Shown here: positions 53,251-61,049 of the stretch, in pieces | Numbering within the stretch: position 1 is the first letter of the stretch | Layout: every line of letters starts with the position of its first letter | Assembly: GCA_018830645.1 (NCBI GenBank) | Contig: JAHJSA010000045.1 | Location: forward strand, 1 to 61,049 | Length of the DNA: 61,049 nt | Direction of reading: 5' to 3' | Source: Actinomycetota bacterium | GTDB lineage: Bacteria > Actinomycetota > Thermoleophilia > RBG-16-64-13 | Translations under genes and position numbers: made by a program | Notes under the pieces: generated by a model | Databases searched by the model: none | What the model was told of the DNA's origin: nothing | The model's input: the letters and a program-made list of their open reading frames with translations, nothing else

Positions 53251-53279
53251 TTGACGTGGGCCTGTCGGCCTGTTTTACT
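53251..53279 (+). promoter_or_regulatory. Promoter of amidotransferase-like gene (leaderless)
   Basis: TTGACG (53251-53256), 17 bp, then TGTTTTACT, an extended -10 with hexamer TTTACT (53274-53279). The ATG follows after 9 nt without a ribosome binding site. This is the best complete promoter in the window. Confidence 0.65.
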
Positions 53280-53288
53280 CTGGCGACC

Positions 53289-54092
53289 ATGGACCGACTC
53301 CTCCACGACGATCCCTCCGGCGCGGAACGGCCCACCCGGCCCCGGGTGATCGTTCTGCAGCACTCCGAGCGCGCGCCGCTCGGGGCTCTCGAGGCCGTCC
53401 TTCGTGAAGGCGCTGAGCTCTTGGTGTACCGGTTGTGCGAGGGCGGCCCCGACGAGGCGGCCGCCTGTGCCACCCTGGAGGAATCGATGGCGGGAGTCGG
53501 CTACGACGGGTTGATCGCTCTCGGTGGCACCATGGGACTCTACGAGCGGGAACGATTCCCCTGCCTTGAGGTGTCGCTTCGCGTCATTGCCGACGCCGTG
53601 CGCCGCGACGTGCCCATCCTCGGACTCGGACTCGGGTCGCAGGTGCTGGCGGAGGCTCTAGGCGCGCCCGTGTTCAGCGGCATCAACAGGGGCATCCCGC
53701 AGGAGATGGGGTTCATGTCGCTCTACCTCACTCGGGCCGGCGGCTCCGACCCCGTGATGCGCATCTTCGGCGTGAACGACCCTCAGCTCTTCTGGCATCG
53801 CGACACCCACGACGTGCCCGACGACGCCGAACACCTGGCGTCGACCTCGCTCTACCAAGTGGCGGCCTTCCGCTGGGGCCGCTGGGCCTACGGTCTGCAG
53901 TTCCACTTGGAGGCGACGGCCGAGATGGTGGAGCGATGGGTCGCCGAAGATGAGCAGGCTTTGGTCGCGCAGGGCATCGATCCCGCCTCGGTCGTGGCCC
54001 AGGCGTGGATGCTCGACGAGGTCATCGAGGAGAAGGCCCGGCGGCTGGGCGGGCTCTTTCTCGAATGGGCGCGGGAGCGTTCGCCTCGCTAG
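53289..54092 (+). CDS. Class I glutamine amidotransferase-like protein lacking the catalytic Cys
   Basis: A 267-residue protein with a class I GATase fold: RVIVLQHSERAPLGALEAVL, YDGLIALGGTMGLYERERFP, PILGLGLGSQVLAEALGAPV, FWHRDTHDVPDDAEHLASTS and AYGLQFHLEATAEMVERWV. In active enzymes the third block reads GxCxG. Here the residue is Gly114 (G-L-G-L-G), so the nucleophile is missing, although the His/Glu pair (H206, E208) is kept. It is probably a non-hydrolysing homologue or binding protein. It may alternatively be damaged. Promoter and start are clear. Confidence 0.85.
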   Translation: MDRLLHDDPSGAERPTRPRVIVLQHSERAPLGALEAVLREGAELLVYRLCEGGPDEAAACATLEESMAGVGYDGLIALGGTMGLYERERFPCLEVSLRVIADAVRRDVPILGLGLGSQVLAEALGAPVFSGINRGIPQEMGFMSLYLTRAGGSDPVMRIFGVNDPQLFWHRDTHDVPDDAEHLASTSLYQVAAFRWGRWAYGLQFHLEATAEMVERWVAEDEQALVAQGIDPASVVAQAWMLDEVIEEKARRLGGLFLEWARERSPR

Positions 54093-54604: not shown

Positions 54605-56938
54605 TCACAAGCCCGTGCTCGGATGCGCGCCGAGCACGGCGCCGAGGAGTTCGAGGGCGAGCACCTTGTCGAGAGGTTCGTTCCAGTTGCCGCACTTGGG
54701 CGACTGCACGCATGAAGGGCACCCTTCCGTGCAGCCGCAGTCTCGAACGAGGGCGATGGTGTCGCGGAACCACTGTTCGACCCGGTCGAAGCCCTGGCGG
54801 GCTATGCCCACGCCCCCCGGGTGACCGTCGTACACGAAGATGGTGGGCAGCTCGGTCTGAGGGTGGAGCGGGGTGGAAAGGCCGCCGATGTCCCAGCGGT
54901 CGCACATGGCGAGGAGGGGGAGCAACGCGATCAGCGCGTGCTCGACGGCGTGAAGGCCGCCGGGCAGCCGGGGCAGCCGGCTCTCGTCCGTGACCATCTC
55001 CAACGGGAAGGTGAACCAGACCCCTTCGGTGACGAAGTGCTGGGTGGGAAGGTCGAGCTCCTCGGTGCCGAGCACCTCGTCACCGCCGCGCCGCTTCTTC
55101 TGGAACGCGATGACCCGGCTGCTCACCGCAAGGGTGCCCAGGTGCATGGTCAGGGGGCCGAACGGCTCGCGAAGCGTATGCGCGAGGATCTCGGTTGACG
55201 ACTCCTTGCGGGGGTGCGTGTAGTACGAGTCGAAGAAGCGTCGAACCGCCGCCACGCGCCCCTCGATGTCGAGGTGTTCCACCAGGTACGTGTCGCCCAT
55301 GTGCAGATAGACCGCTCCCGGGTGAAGGAACATGAAGGCGGTCTCGGCCTCCTGCGAGCCGATGATGTCTCCGGTCTCGCCATCGACGATGGTGAATTGA
55401 TCGGGCGACGAGGAGCGCAGGCTGATCTCGCCAGCTGGGTAGCCGTCGCCGCTCACCAGCCAGCTGTCGAAGCCGGTGCGCAGGCCGCCGTTTCGTACCT
55501 CTCGCTCCGCCGCCTCCGCGAGCCCGGGGCCGAAGAACTCCTCGTCTTCCGCTACCAACGGCGACTCGTAGGCGGCCGCGACCAGGTGCCGGCCGTGGAT
55601 GAACGGGTTGGCGTAGTCGATGGTGGCCGCCTCGACCGGCCGGCTCAGGAGCTCCTTGGGGTTGCGCACAAAGTACTGTTCGAGAGCGTCGTTGCCGGCC
55701 ACCATGATGGCCAGGCTCTCGCCCTTGCCGCGCCCGGCTCGGCCCCACTGCTGCCAGAGACTGGCGATGGTGCCGGGGTAGCCGACGGTGATCACCGCAT
55801 CGAGCGCGCCCACATCGATGCCCAACTCGAGAGCGTTGGTGCTGACCACCCCCAGCAGATCACCTTCGAAGAGGCGCTTCTCGATGCCTCGTCGCTGCTC
55901 GGGCGTGTACCCGGCACGGTATGGGGACAGGCGTTTGGCCAGGCCTTGATCGTGTTCTGAGAGTTTGTCCGCCGCGTATTGGTTGACGAGTTCGGCCGCC
56001 TTTCGTGACTTGGTGAAGCAGATGGTGCGCACCCCGTTCCGCACGAGTTCAGCGAGCAACTCCGCGGCCTCCACGGCGCTGCTGCGTCGCAGGTTCAGGC
56101 GCTCGTCGGCGAGGGGCGGGTTCCAGAGGATGATCTTGCGGCGGCCGAGTGGGGCTCCGTCGTCGTCGATAGGCGTGACGGGCAGACCGGTGAGCCGCTC
56201 CGCATGCTCCGGAGCGTTGCCGATCGTGGCCGAGGCCATGATGAAGCGGGGCTCAGCTCCATAGAAGGCGGCGGTCCGGCGGAGGCGGCGAAGCACGTTT
56301 GCGACGTGGCTGCCGAAGACCCCCCGATACGTGTGGGCCTCGTCGATCACCACGTAGGCCAGGTTGAAGAAGAAGTCTCCCCAACGCTCGTGATGGGGGA
56401 GCATCGCCATGCTGATCATGTCGGGGTTGGTGAGTAGGAGCCTCGCGCGCTTGCGCGCGAGGCGGCGGGCTTCGGCGGGAGTGTCGCCGTCGTAGACGGC
56501 CAGCTCGATACGGCCGCCCGCCAGGGGACGCAGCCGGCGCAGCTGGTCTTGAGCGAGCGCTTTGGTGGGATAGAGGTAGAGCGCCCGCGCCGTAGGTTCG
56601 CGATGCAGGTGGTCGAGCACCGGGAGGTTGAAGCAGAGACTCTTGCCCGACGCGGTTCCCGTGGTGACTATCAGGTTGCCGCCTCCCCGAGCCTCATCCC
56701 AGCACGAGCGTTGGTGGGTCCAGAGTTCTCGGATACCCATGGCGCCCAGGGCCTCTTCGAGGTGGGGGTGGAGTTCGCCCGTGGGCACCGCCGCGGTTCG
56801 ACCAAGCCGTGAAGGCAGCACGAGTTCGGCGCTCACCTGTTCGTACGCCTCGCTCGGGAACATGTCGAACAGTGCCTTGTTGTTCAATCTCAAGAACCTC
56901 CGAATACGAGAGTACACTTCGCCACGGACATCGACCAT
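54605..56938 (-). CDS. DEAD/DEAH-box helicase with DUF1998 (MrfA/YprA type)
   Basis: A 777-residue superfamily 2 helicase. Motifs: WTHQRSCWDEARGGGNLIVT, TGTASGKSLCF (Walker A), VVIDEAHTYRGVFGSHVANV (DEAH), MASATIGN, GVVSTNALELGIDVGALDAV and QQWGRAGRGKGESLAIMVAG (motif VI). The C-terminal DUF1998 region contains four cysteines (CGCTEGCPSCVQSPKCGN) that bind zinc. MrfA-type helicases unwind DNA 3'-5' and act in repair of mitomycin-type damage. ATG 56938 is taken as start; a GTG at 56959 would add seven residues. Confidence 0.93.
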   Translation of the reverse strand: MVDVRGEVYSRIRRFLRLNNKALFDMFPSEAYEQVSAELVLPSRLGRTAAVPTGELHPHLEEALGAMGIRELWTHQRSCWDEARGGGNLIVTTGTASGKSLCFNLPVLDHLHREPTARALYLYPTKALAQDQLRRLRPLAGGRIELAVYDGDTPAEARRLARKRARLLLTNPDMISMAMLPHHERWGDFFFNLAYVVIDEAHTYRGVFGSHVANVLRRLRRTAAFYGAEPRFIMASATIGNAPEHAERLTGLPVTPIDDDGAPLGRRKIILWNPPLADERLNLRRSSAVEAAELLAELVRNGVRTICFTKSRKAAELVNQYAADKLSEHDQGLAKRLSPYRAGYTPEQRRGIEKRLFEGDLLGVVSTNALELGIDVGALDAVITVGYPGTIASLWQQWGRAGRGKGESLAIMVAGNDALEQYFVRNPKELLSRPVEAATIDYANPFIHGRHLVAAAYESPLVAEDEEFFGPGLAEAAEREVRNGGLRTGFDSWLVSGDGYPAGEISLRSSSPDQFTIVDGETGDIIGSQEAETAFMFLHPGAVYLHMGDTYLVEHLDIEGRVAAVRRFFDSYYTHPRKESSTEILAHTLREPFGPLTMHLGTLAVSSRVIAFQKKRRGGDEVLGTEELDLPTQHFVTEGVWFTFPLEMVTDESRLPRLPGGLHAVEHALIALLPLLAMCDRWDIGGLSTPLHPQTELPTIFVYDGHPGGVGIARQGFDRVEQWFRDTIALVRDCGCTEGCPSCVQSPKCGNWNEPLDKVLALELLGAVLGAHPSTGL

Positions 56939-57124
56939 GCGGACCACCCGCCCTCTCACTGCAGTTGTTCACGACCTGGGCCCGCAGAGGCGCTGGTGAA
57001 CGCCGGTGGCGCCGGCTCGGATCACCTCAGTCGTGCGTTTCTCGGAATGCTAGAGGTGCCTGCGGCTTCCGAACATGCGTCGGAAGGTGGAGCATGATGC
57101 TGCAGGGGGCAGCGGACTGCTCGC

Positions 57125-57219
57125 CGCGGTGCCCCGCGGTGCCCCGCGATGGCGCACGGTGCCCCGTGTGGCGCCCCACGGTGCCCCGCGGCGCCCCAGC
57201 CCACGGTGCCCGCAGTGGG
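57125..57219. repeat. GGTGCCCCGC-rich low-complexity repeat
   Basis: The motif GGTGCCCC recurs with about 10-20 bp spacing (first two copies adjacent, later ones separated by GATGGCGCAC and TGTGGCGCCC variants), just upstream of the HAD-kinase promoter. It is open in the downstream frame but codes only Pro/Arg/Ala-rich sequence, so it is not counted as coding. A separate 7-bp inverted repeat, CTTCCGA/TCGGAAG, lies at 57066-57086. Confidence 0.6.
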
Positions 57220-57230
57220 CCGACCGCCAC

Positions 57231-57239
57231 TGCTATACT
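57231..57239 (+). promoter_or_regulatory. Extended -10 promoter of HAD-kinase fusion (leaderless)
   Basis: TGCTATACT (TGn plus TATACT) ends 9 nt before the ATG. No ribosome binding site lies between. The bases up to and including the start closely resemble the amidotransferase promoter (common GCGACCATGG). Confidence 0.55.
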
Positions 57240-57248
57240 TCCGCGACC

Positions 57249-60200
57249 ATGGCAGACGGTGTGAAGTACTTCATCGCGTGTGACTTCGACGGCACGGTCA
57301 CGGAGGAGGACACCCTCGACCTGCTCGTGGAGCACTTCGCCCCGGGAGTGTGGGAGATCGCCGAAGCGGGACTGAAGGCCGGCACTCTCACTCTCAATCA
57401 AGCGATGATCGACGAGTTCCGCAACGTGCGGGTGAGCGAGCGCGATGCGGTCGAGTACGTGCTCCGCACGGCGGAACTCCGCGCCGGGTTCGAGGAGTTC
57501 GTGCGGTGGGCGGCCGAAGCCGGTCACGAACTCGTGATCGTGAGCGCGGGCTTCCGCGTGCTGATCGACGCGGTGCTCGCCCGCGCCGGGCGGGCGCACC
57601 TTCACGTGCACGCCGGCGACGCACTCTTCACCACCCAGGGCACCACGTTCTGGTTCCCCCCATCATCGGCCGATTGCATAGAAGAGTGCGGGCACTGCAA
57701 GCGCGACACCATCGCGGCCCACGCCCCGTTCCCTGGTCCACTCGTATATATAGGCGACGGCTACTCCGACCGGTGTCCCGCGCAGGCGGCCGATATCGTC
57801 TTCGCCCGCCGGTCCTTGGCGGAACACCTGGATCGAGAGGGTGTTCCCTACCATCACTTCGAGGACTTCCATTCGGTCGTGCGAGTTCTCGACGAGGAGT
57901 GGGCCGGCTCATCCGCGGCCGACGCCACCGCCACCGCCACCACCGCCGTCGACGCCACCGACGCCCCGCTCGCTGAATCCAGCGGCACTCCGCTCCCCAC
58001 CGCCACCGACGCCCTGCCCGCCGGATTCGCCGGCTCCACCGAACCACTGGCGGAGCTGTTCAACACGAGCAAGGCCGTGATGGGCCTCGTGGACCCCACT
58101 ACCGCGCGCATCATCGACGCAAACGAGGCGGCCTGCGCCATGTACGGATACTCCAGGGAGGAGTTCCGCGGCATGCCGGTGAGCCGGCTGAACGATCTGC
58201 CGGAGGACACGTGGCGCGACCAAGTCGAAGGGGGATGGGAGGGGCCAGACATCGCGCGCCGCTTCCGGAACAGGCTTGCCAGCGGGGAGGTACGAGAGGT
58301 AGAGACCCACTACACACACATCCATCGGGGCGGCAGGAGGCTCTTGCTGGGCATCACCCGTGACGTCACGCACAGCATACGGGCTCGCGAAGCCCTGGAG
58401 GAGAGCGAGGCGCGGTTCCGTCTGTTGGCGGAGAACTCGCCCGACGTCATCTTCAGCTTCCGCCTCACCGAACCCCGGGGGTTCACGTACATGAGTCCCG
58501 CCGTGACCGGCATCCTCGAGGCGTCGCCCGAGGAGTTCTACGCCGACCCCGGATTGATGTTCTCGATGCTGCACCCAGGGGACGAAGCGCCGATCGAAGC
58601 CATGGTGAGGCGGAACCTCCCGGAGGCGGCAGCTATCGAGATCCGGTTGCACACGCCCTCGGGGCGCCTGGTGTGGGCCGAGCTGAGCTCGGCTTTGAGG
58701 CGCGACGCGGCGGGGATCCCCGTGGCCATCGAAGGCGTGGCGCGCGATATCACGGCCCGAAAGCGACAGGAAGAGGAACGCGCGTTCCTGCTCTCCGCGG
58801 TCGAGCAGATGGACGAGGTCGTGGTGATCACAGACACCGACGCGACTATCGTCTATGTGAACCCCGCCTTCGAGCGCGTGACCGGCTACTCTCAGAAGGA
58901 GGCGATGGGGCGGAACCCTCGCTTCCTCTCGAGTGGGCGGGAAGAGATCGAGTTCTACCAGGAACTCTGGGCCACGATCTTGGCGGGGCGGGTGTGGACC
59001 GGTCGCTTCACGAACCGTCGCGCGGACGGCCGGACATACGAGGAGGAGGCGTCGATCTCCCCCGTGCGCGACGCGGAGGGGCACATCGTCAACTACGTGG
59101 CGGTGAAGCGCGACATCACGCGCGAGCTTGCGCTCGAAGGGCAGCTCATGCAGAGTCAGAAGATGGAGGCGGTCGGCCGTCTCGCCGGTGGGGTGGCCCA
59201 CGATTTCAACAACCTGCTCACGAGCATCTCGGGCTACGCCGACCTCCTCGCCGCGGAGATCTCCCCCGACGACCCGATTCATCTTGACGTTGTCGAGATC
59301 CAGAATGCCGCCGACCGTGCCGCCGATCTCACGCGTAGACTCCTCGCCTTCTCGAGGAAGGAGGTGGTGAGGCCGCGCCCGGTGGACATGGTGGTCGCCG
59401 TCTCGGGTATGTCGACGCTCTTGCGGCGCATGGTGGGGCCGCGCGTCGAGCTCGTCACCGAGTTGGTGCCGGCTCCCCTGGTCGTCCTAGCGGACCCGAG
59501 TCAGGTGGAGCAGGTGCTTATGAACCTTGCCGTGAACGCGTCGGATGCGATGCCGGACGGGGGTGTGCTCTACATCGGCGTGAGCAAAGTCACCTCGAGC
59601 GAGCGGTGCCCCGCCGACGGGGTGTCGGCGCCGGCAGGGTGCGTGAGGCTCTCGGTGCGAGACACCGGCGTAGGCATGGAAGAAGAGGTGGCCGGCCGCG
59701 TGTTCGAGCCCTTCTTCACCACCAAGGACTCGGGTCGGGGGACCGGCCTGGGCCTCGCTACGGTGTACGGTATAGTCGAAGCGGCGGGCGGGAGCGTGAG
59801 CGCACGCAGCGTTCCCGGCGAGGGCTCGGAGTTCGAAGTGTTCCTGCCGTTGTACGAGGGCCTTCCTTCGGACGGGGTCCGCTCGGGCGTCAGGGAGCGG
59901 CGCATCCCACGAGGTCGCGAGACGGTGCTCGTGGTCGACGACGAACTCCCGGTGCTGCGCCTCGCCGCGCGTACGCTGACCGGCGTCGGCTACACCGTCA
60001 TAGAGGCGACCGACGCGGAGACGGCCCTGGCGATCGTCGACAGGGAAGGCGATCGCATCGACCTCGTGGTCACGGATGTCGCCATGCCCCGCATGACGGG
60101 TACGCGGCTCGCCGAGCTGCTCTCGCTGCGGCGCCCGGGCTTGAAGGTGGTGTTCGTGTCTGGATACGCTGGGGTCGGCGACGAGTCGCCGGACTACGTG

Positions 60201-60281
60201 GGCCGGGTGGCCTGGTTCCTACAGAAGCCTTTCGGTGCCGACGACCTCGCCCAGATCGTCCGCGAAGCGTTGGACTCCTAG
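57249..60281 (+). CDS. HAD phosphatase-PAS-PAS-PAS-histidine kinase-receiver fusion
   Basis: A 1010-residue protein. Residues 5-222 are a complete HAD-IB phosphatase of the MtnX/SerB type: D12 and D14 in FIACDFDGTVTEEDTLDLL, S99 in VIVSAGFRVL, K151 in CGHCKRD, D170 and D174 in YIGDGYSDRC. An Ala/Thr-rich linker (about 223-260) leads to three PAS domains (about 262-385, 390-510, 513-628). The kinase has H651 (GGVAHDFNNLL), N763 (NLAVNASDAMP), D805xGxG and GRGTGLGLATVYG. A receiver follows with D943 (VVTDVAMP) and K993. No membrane segment is present, so it is cytosolic. All catalytic residues seem intact. The ATG follows an extended -10 box. Confidence 0.93.
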   Translation: MADGVKYFIACDFDGTVTEEDTLDLLVEHFAPGVWEIAEAGLKAGTLTLNQAMIDEFRNVRVSERDAVEYVLRTAELRAGFEEFVRWAAEAGHELVIVSAGFRVLIDAVLARAGRAHLHVHAGDALFTTQGTTFWFPPSSADCIEECGHCKRDTIAAHAPFPGPLVYIGDGYSDRCPAQAADIVFARRSLAEHLDREGVPYHHFEDFHSVVRVLDEEWAGSSAADATATATTAVDATDAPLAESSGTPLPTATDALPAGFAGSTEPLAELFNTSKAVMGLVDPTTARIIDANEAACAMYGYSREEFRGMPVSRLNDLPEDTWRDQVEGGWEGPDIARRFRNRLASGEVREVETHYTHIHRGGRRLLLGITRDVTHSIRAREALEESEARFRLLAENSPDVIFSFRLTEPRGFTYMSPAVTGILEASPEEFYADPGLMFSMLHPGDEAPIEAMVRRNLPEAAAIEIRLHTPSGRLVWAELSSALRRDAAGIPVAIEGVARDITARKRQEEERAFLLSAVEQMDEVVVITDTDATIVYVNPAFERVTGYSQKEAMGRNPRFLSSGREEIEFYQELWATILAGRVWTGRFTNRRADGRTYEEEASISPVRDAEGHIVNYVAVKRDITRELALEGQLMQSQKMEAVGRLAGGVAHDFNNLLTSISGYADLLAAEISPDDPIHLDVVEIQNAADRAADLTRRLLAFSRKEVVRPRPVDMVVAVSGMSTLLRRMVGPRVELVTELVPAPLVVLADPSQVEQVLMNLAVNASDAMPDGGVLYIGVSKVTSSERCPADGVSAPAGCVRLSVRDTGVGMEEEVAGRVFEPFFTTKDSGRGTGLGLATVYGIVEAAGGSVSARSVPGEGSEFEVFLPLYEGLPSDGVRSGVRERRIPRGRETVLVVDDELPVLRLAARTLTGVGYTVIEATDAETALAIVDREGDRIDLVVTDVAMPRMTGTRLAELLSLRRPGLKVVFVSGYAGVGDESPDYVGRVAWFLQKPFGADDLAQIVREALDS

Positions 60282-60288
60282 CAGTCTC

Positions 60289-61049
60289 CTAGCGCGGCAC
60301 GCGCACCAGCTGCTGCTCTACCAGTAGCTCCGCGATCTGCACGGCGTTCAGAGCCGCGCCCTTGCGAAGGTTGTCGGCCACCACCCAGAGGTTGAGGCCA
60401 TGGGGCACGGTCGGGTCGCGCCGGATGCGCCCCACGTACACGGGATCGGTGCCGGACGCCATGATCGGCATCGGGTACATGCCGAGCGAGGGGTCGTCGA
60501 GCACGATCACACCCGGGGCGGAGGCCAGCAGCTCGCGCGCCCGTGCGGGCGGCATCTCGCCGGCGAACTCCACGTTCACCGCCTCCGAATGTCCGTTCTC
60601 CACCGGCACCCGCACGCACGTGGCCGTGACCTCGATGGTGTCGTCGCCCATGATCTTCTTGGTCTCGTCGGCCATCTTCTGCTCTTCCTTCGTCGAGCCG
60701 TCGTCGAGGAAGATGTCGATGTGGGGCAGGCAGTTGAAGGCGATCTGATGGGGATACACCTCCACCTGCGGAGTCATCCCCTCGAGAAGCTCATCAGATT
60801 GACGGACGAGCTCGCTGATCGCTTCGGTCCCCGTACCCGAGACGGCCTGGTACGTCGACACGACCACGCGGGTGACTCGAGCCACGTCGTGCAACGGCTT
60901 GAGCGCCACCACCATCTGGATGGTCGAGCAGTTCGGGTTGGCAATGATGCCCCGGTGGTCGCGCGCCGCGCCCGGGTTCACCTCGGGGACGATCAGAGGC
61001 ACGCCGGGGTCCATGCGCCAGGCCGACGAGTTGTCGATGACCACGCACC
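60289..61049 (-). CDS. asd: Aspartate-semialdehyde dehydrogenase (partial)
   Basis: The C-terminal 250 residues; the start is beyond the window. IIANPNCSTIQMVVALKPLH contains the catalytic Cys, YQAVSGTGTEAISELVRQSD and CVRVPVENGHSEAVNVEFAG hold the active-site Gln and His regions, and the end (GAALNAVQIAELLVEQQLV) is typical. The enzyme makes aspartate semialdehyde for lysine/diaminopimelate, threonine and methionine. Its stop is 7 bp from that of the HAD-kinase gene, which converges on it. Confidence 0.95.
   Translation of the reverse strand, partial: CVVIDNSSAWRMDPGVPLIVPEVNPGAARDHRGIIANPNCSTIQMVVALKPLHDVARVTRVVVSTYQAVSGTGTEAISELVRQSDELLEGMTPQVEVYPHQIAFNCLPHIDIFLDDGSTKEEQKMADETKKIMGDDTIEVTATCVRVPVENGHSEAVNVEFAGEMPPARARELLASAPGVIVLDDPSLGMYPMPIMASGTDPVYVGRIRRDPTVPHGLNLWVVADNLRKGAALNAVQIAELLVEQQLVRVPR

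Follow-up and report, generated by a model that had tools for sequence, protein, structure and literature searches.

The window analysed here, the whole stretch of 61,049 nucleotides, carries a gene in which a phosphatase of the HAD superfamily is followed by a hybrid histidine kinase, and this raises the questions whether the two are one protein, how they came to be joined and whether one half influences the other. On the plus strand the frame is open without interruption from 57075 to 60281, and the ATG at 57249 (MADGVKYF...) gives a protein of 1010 amino acids, exactly the interval that an earlier note on this DNA had assigned to the gene. The features of the locus are as follows, with residue numbers of the fusion protein.

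54605..56959, minus strand: helicase gene, conserved neighbour, divergent from the HAD gene (synteny in L044-L050)
57231..57239, plus strand: probable extended -10 element TGcTATACT of the ancestral HAD promoter, a putative role based on the conservation of TATACT
57249..60281, plus strand: whole fusion gene, 1010 aa (open frame and orthologue L002:4887-8057)
57249..57896, plus strand: MtnX-like HAD-IB phosphatase domain, residues 1-216 (Pfam, NCBIfam, PDB 2fea match, motifs)
57897..58034, plus strand: Ala/Thr/Asp-rich flexible linker, residues 217-262, about 46 residues of low complexity
58035..58397, plus strand: PAS 1, about residues 263-383 (Pfam, boundaries approximate)
58398..58763, plus strand: PAS 2, about residues 384-505 (Pfam, boundaries approximate)
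58764..59123, plus strand: PAS 3, residues 506-625 (PAS_9 at 524-624, Pfam; sensory_box at 508-631, NCBIfam)
59175..59363, plus strand: HisKA, residues 643-705, phospho-acceptor H651 in GGVAHDFNN (Pfam 6e-10, motif)
59493..59855, plus strand: HATPase_c, residues 749-869, with N, G1, F and G2 boxes (Pfam 5e-22, motifs)
59925..60260, plus strand: receiver (Response_reg), residues 893-1004, phospho-acceptor D943 and the K in QKPF (Pfam 3e-17, motifs)
60289..61047, minus strand: aspartate-semialdehyde dehydrogenase gene (asd), conserved neighbour, convergent, running past the window end (synteny in L044-L050)

One frame in two species

The same fusion is encoded at L002:4887-8057 in another species of the genus ('Actinomycetes bacterium isolate LH_M24', L002; the contig is apparently identical with G006:C18, also of this genus), and the two proteins are 94% identical in the HAD domain, 86% in the PAS domains, 89% in the kinase core and 88% in the receiver. 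The linkers of the two species have diverged strongly and differ in length by 8 codons with the frame kept, and neither holds the stop or frameshift for which the earlier note had proposed that this segment be checked. An open frame in another species whose linker is so different makes an error of sequencing or assembly unlikely; each sequence is from a draft assembly and the linker is GC-rich and repetitive, but with two differing linkers, a length difference that stays in frame and reading frames constrained on either side, a mis-assembly or an overlooked stop or frameshift within the linker is so improbable that we set it aside. Thus, the claim that a single protein is encoded stands on a continuous frame in two species of one genus, both from assembled contigs, and the joining of a HAD phosphatase to a sensor kinase is a real architecture that is conserved in both.

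The sequence TATACT lies 9 nt ahead of the ATG at 57249; in 6 of the 8 genomes compared, four of them with a stand-alone HAD and the others fused, it precedes the HAD start by 8-14 nt. This conserved position supports the start codon at 57249 and suggests that the transcript from the ancestral HAD promoter may be leaderless or almost so. Directly upstream of the promoter, at 57127-57230, the window has repeated GC-rich 'cggtgccccg' units that are absent upstream of the L002 orthologue. There is no in-frame ATG, GTG or TTG in the linker, the first being a GTG at 58077 and an ATG at 58080, both within PAS 1, and separate translation of a complete kinase is therefore unlikely. No transmembrane segment was found in the fusion protein, the best 19-residue hydropathy of 1.76 being that of a HAD core strand, and the product is predicted to be a soluble protein of two modules.

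The two halves

The Pfam E-values are strong and put the domain assignments far beyond chance. In the N-terminal half, Pfam HAD matches residues 9-175 (E 4e-15), PDB 2fea, an MtnX phosphatase, aligns to residues 6-214 (1e-19), and the NCBIfam model of MtnX-like HAD-IB proteins, TIGR01489, scores 99.7 bits on the full protein and 102.2 bits on the domain alone against a cut-off of 81.55. Catalytic motifs I-IV are all present (D12xD14, S99, K151 and D170/D174), and they are kept in the fused orthologue and in the stand-alone relatives; the domain also contains the cysteine cluster CIEECGHCK. A structure of the domain predicted from two sequences reached a pLDDT of 47. The description 'MtnX/SerB-type' given earlier to a complete HAD-IB catalytic domain is therefore right as regards the catalytic domain and its MtnX-like character, while identity with SerB and a role in methionine salvage are not supported. 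The models of MtnX proper are missed by a wide margin (TIGR03333, 95-100 bits against a cut-off of 303.2; NF007103, 111-116 bits against 292), and acireductone dioxygenase (PF03079), the next step of that pathway, was not matched in the own genome, nor above cut-off in any of 18 family genomes. SerB is excluded by sequence (TIGR00338, 27.6 bits against 144.15).

That the HAD enzyme could take the place of SerB looked promising within the family, where SerA occurs in 18 of 18 genomes and the four genomes with SerB-like genes each are without the MtnX-like HAD. However, six further family genomes have neither, and at the class level all six genomes with SerB above cut-off also carry an MtnX-like HAD, and this replacement is not supported. 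In five family genomes (G001, G003, G013, G014 and G015) SerA occurs but both a SerB-like gene and the MtnX-like HAD are lacking, and a different phosphoserine phosphatase is therefore expected there.

The C-terminal half was described earlier as a three-PAS hybrid kinase, and Pfam and NCBIfam agree on three PAS stretches (up to 1e-34 in Pfam), HisKA, HATPase_c and a receiver. By sequence, the phospho-acceptor His of HisKA, the boxes of HATPase_c and the phospho-acceptor Asp of the receiver, as in a hybrid histidine kinase, are all in place. Kinase core and receiver can be aligned over about 400-500 residues to CckA and models like it, and the scores (NF046020, 382.9 bits; NF046026, 310.6 bits) are far from the equivalog cut-off of 1000, so that the protein is not CckA. 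The family is very rich in hybrid kinases, and the own genome alone has 46 match places to paralogous hybrid kinases. Because its closest relatives, hybrid kinases elsewhere in the genus and family, are at most 49% identical and match over PAS 3, kinase and receiver only, the kinase half is a member of a large, shuffled paralogue family. When the window was searched by tblastn with the fusion's own domains as queries, no second gene for a histidine kinase or a receiver turned up, in keeping with the statement of the earlier note that no regulator adjoins, and no HPt or output gene lies in the window.

Origin of the fusion and selection on it

Six further genomes of the family, which represent five other genera (L045-L050), keep the order helicase, HAD, asd, and wherever their contigs extend past the helicase the LOG and GATase-type genes follow there. 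Their HADs, which occupy the orthologous place, are 49-63% identical to the fused domain and end at their own stop at about residue 216-225, and none of the six genomes has a kinase between HAD and asd. Because six relatives thus have the same order without a kinase, the kinase segment entered downstream of the HAD gene within the lineage that led to the window's genus. The earlier note had named, as a finding that would refute the fusion, homologues that always have the two parts as separate genes; this is not so, as the orthologue of the same genus retains the fusion, though other genera have a separate HAD. Two further features were seen near this locus in relatives. The GATase-like gene, single in the window (53256-54092), is present as two tandem copies in one relative (L045:1365-2968, G009), and past asd, at a place whose counterpart is outside the window, the second species has a GAF plus RsbU/SpoIIE-type serine phosphatase-like gene (L002:9146-10570).

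MtnX-like HAD matches were found in 137 of 399 class genomes and 72 of 396 phylum genomes. Among the translated class and phylum matches with the longest open frames, which are a sample and not a census, there was no other HAD-kinase fusion; in the MtnX-like matches with long frames the HAD was at or near the frame end and no kinase followed it. The weak long-frame matches that were considered as fusions were SerB proteins with an ACT-type region at the N-terminus, or else read-through frames. Of the plasmid matches, all 53 had less than 60% identity, and the named ones among those listed were annotated as plain phosphatases. In a scan of 84,980 species genomes for exact short peptides, which reaches close relatives only, L002 alone matched. 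As far as sampled, the fusion is confined to the window's genus. No description of a histidine kinase joined to a HAD or phosphoserine phosphatase came up in the literature searched, a further search on MtnX-like phosphatases found no paper, and the HAD-hybrid kinase architecture has apparently not been described before. Two other joined phosphatase genes, judged by eye, were seen in the own genome, each in one frame: a phosphoglycolate-phosphatase-like HAD followed by an AIR-synthase/HypE-type-like domain (L096:2356-4059, C91), and a SurE-like nucleotidase followed by a PpaX-type HAD phosphatase (L095:1887-3581, C20).

Pairwise NG86 estimates between the two fusion species, for which dS is about 0.4, gave a dN/dS of 0.086 for HAD, 0.22, 0.16 and 0.11 for PAS 1, 2 and 3, 0.15 for the kinase core and 0.18 for the receiver, with the neighbouring helicase (0.07) and asd (0.08) as reference; for the linker it was 0.81. 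The branch of the fused HAD is of ordinary length compared to the stand-alone HADs and the adjoining genes, with no speed-up. Both halves are under purifying selection, the constraint on HAD is like that on an ordinary enzyme and the linker is nearly free. Since dN/dS is low in the HAD and kinase parts and the HAD shows no acceleration, both modules are being maintained, and this pattern agrees better with two functional modules that are flexibly joined than with a stiff connector for signalling or a degenerate sensor domain.

What the joined halves may do

The earlier note had suggested that the phosphatase might sense a metabolite as an input, dephosphorylate a signal molecule or act on the phosphoryl group of the receiver. 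The explanation that we prefer, and to which we give a probability of about one half, is that the protein would be an active phosphatase flexibly tethered to an active hybrid kinase, that it arose by insertion of a kinase behind the ancestral HAD and that any coupling would be by proximity. A kinase gene of the PAS-PAS-PAS-HisKA-HATPase-REC type that abounds in the family would have been inserted between the ancestral MtnX-like HAD and asd, the kinase start and the HAD stop codon would have been lost, and the resulting soluble protein of two modules would be expressed from the old HAD promoter. HAD would retain its ancestral small-molecule phosphatase reaction, the PAS domains would stay the signal input, and the kinase would autophosphorylate at H651 and pass the phosphoryl group to D943 and then to an unlinked partner. 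The tether may place the substrate or product of HAD near PAS 1, or it may merely couple the dosage of the kinase to that of the enzyme. A more specific version, which we hold only tentatively, is that the metabolic phosphatase, catalytically active, is itself the input module, such that substrate turnover, through the local product or ligand state, sets the kinase output and the two-component system directly reads the flux through one metabolic step.

The main rival, clearly less probable than the preferred explanation, is a fusion that is neutral or matters for expression alone, in which each module functions as it did and their joining plays no part in signalling. The linker, with its dN/dS of 0.81 and variable length, is as near to neutral as would be expected of a fusion without functional coupling, HAD has evolved in the same way as its stand-alone relatives, and in a family so rich in hybrid kinases an accidental joining is plausible. 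What speaks against it is that the frame has survived the divergence of the two species (dS about 0.4), though a stop in the linker and a new start would have come easily.

It is rather doubtful that HAD acts as an allosteric sensor, in which ligand binding or closure of the cap would be passed on to PAS 1 and the kinase. Its N-terminal position is typical of an input module, and Ks-Amt5 (PMC5764959) and HoxBC/HoxJ (PMC6978683) are precedents, but some 46 disordered, fast-evolving linker residues are unlike the helical connectors that transmit conformational signals, and the catalytic residues of HAD are all kept and strongly constrained. A linker so long, near-neutral and variable in length argues against tight conformational coupling, and rigid conformational signalling through it is less likely.

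Less probable still, and by a good deal, is a built-in off switch, in which HAD would dephosphorylate the kinase's own phospho-His or phospho-Asp or a downstream partner. The HAD phosphatase LHPP, to which such a role might be likened, belongs to another subclass of the superfamily, with a C2 cap. The flexible tether would give the necessary reach, and phosphohistidine phosphatases do exist in the HAD superfamily, LHPP being one (PMC12451111); however, the closest stand-alone HAD relatives have no adjoining kinase, the HAD active site looks unchanged, and the kinase already has an HDFNN motif that is compatible with a phosphatase activity of its own.

Returning to the tethered phosphatase and kinase, if the halves communicate this would be a metabolic enzyme coupled straight to a two-component kinase in compact form, and if they do not it clearly illustrates a young gene fusion that has been tolerated so far. 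Because the states before and after are kept at the same locus in sister genera, the recruitment of an enzyme into signalling can be tested here with the stand-alone and the fused HAD.

Compared to known systems, the HAD half has the full catalytic domain, the motif set and the CxxxCGxCK cluster of MtnX-like HAD-IB proteins (TIGR01489) and of MtnX (2fea), but the relatives examined stand alone and this one is fused to a kinase, and it differs from MtnX proper in scoring below the equivalog cut-off, in a family without the dioxygenase of methionine salvage. From soluble PAS-HisKA-HATPase-REC hybrid kinases with a CckA-like core the protein differs by the enzyme at its N-terminus, with no HPt or output gene accompanying it in the window. 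Metabolic proteins recruited as kinase inputs are already known. In Ks-Amt5 (Amt-HK) a protein of metabolic origin is likewise joined to a histidine kinase, but it is membrane-bound and efficient transport has been lost (PMC5764959), whereas the HAD described here, on its disordered tether, seems to be catalytically intact. HoxBC, a hydrogenase-like protein of metabolic origin, similarly feeds the histidine kinase HoxJ, but as a separate protein (PMC6978683), whereas here the enzyme and the kinase are fused.
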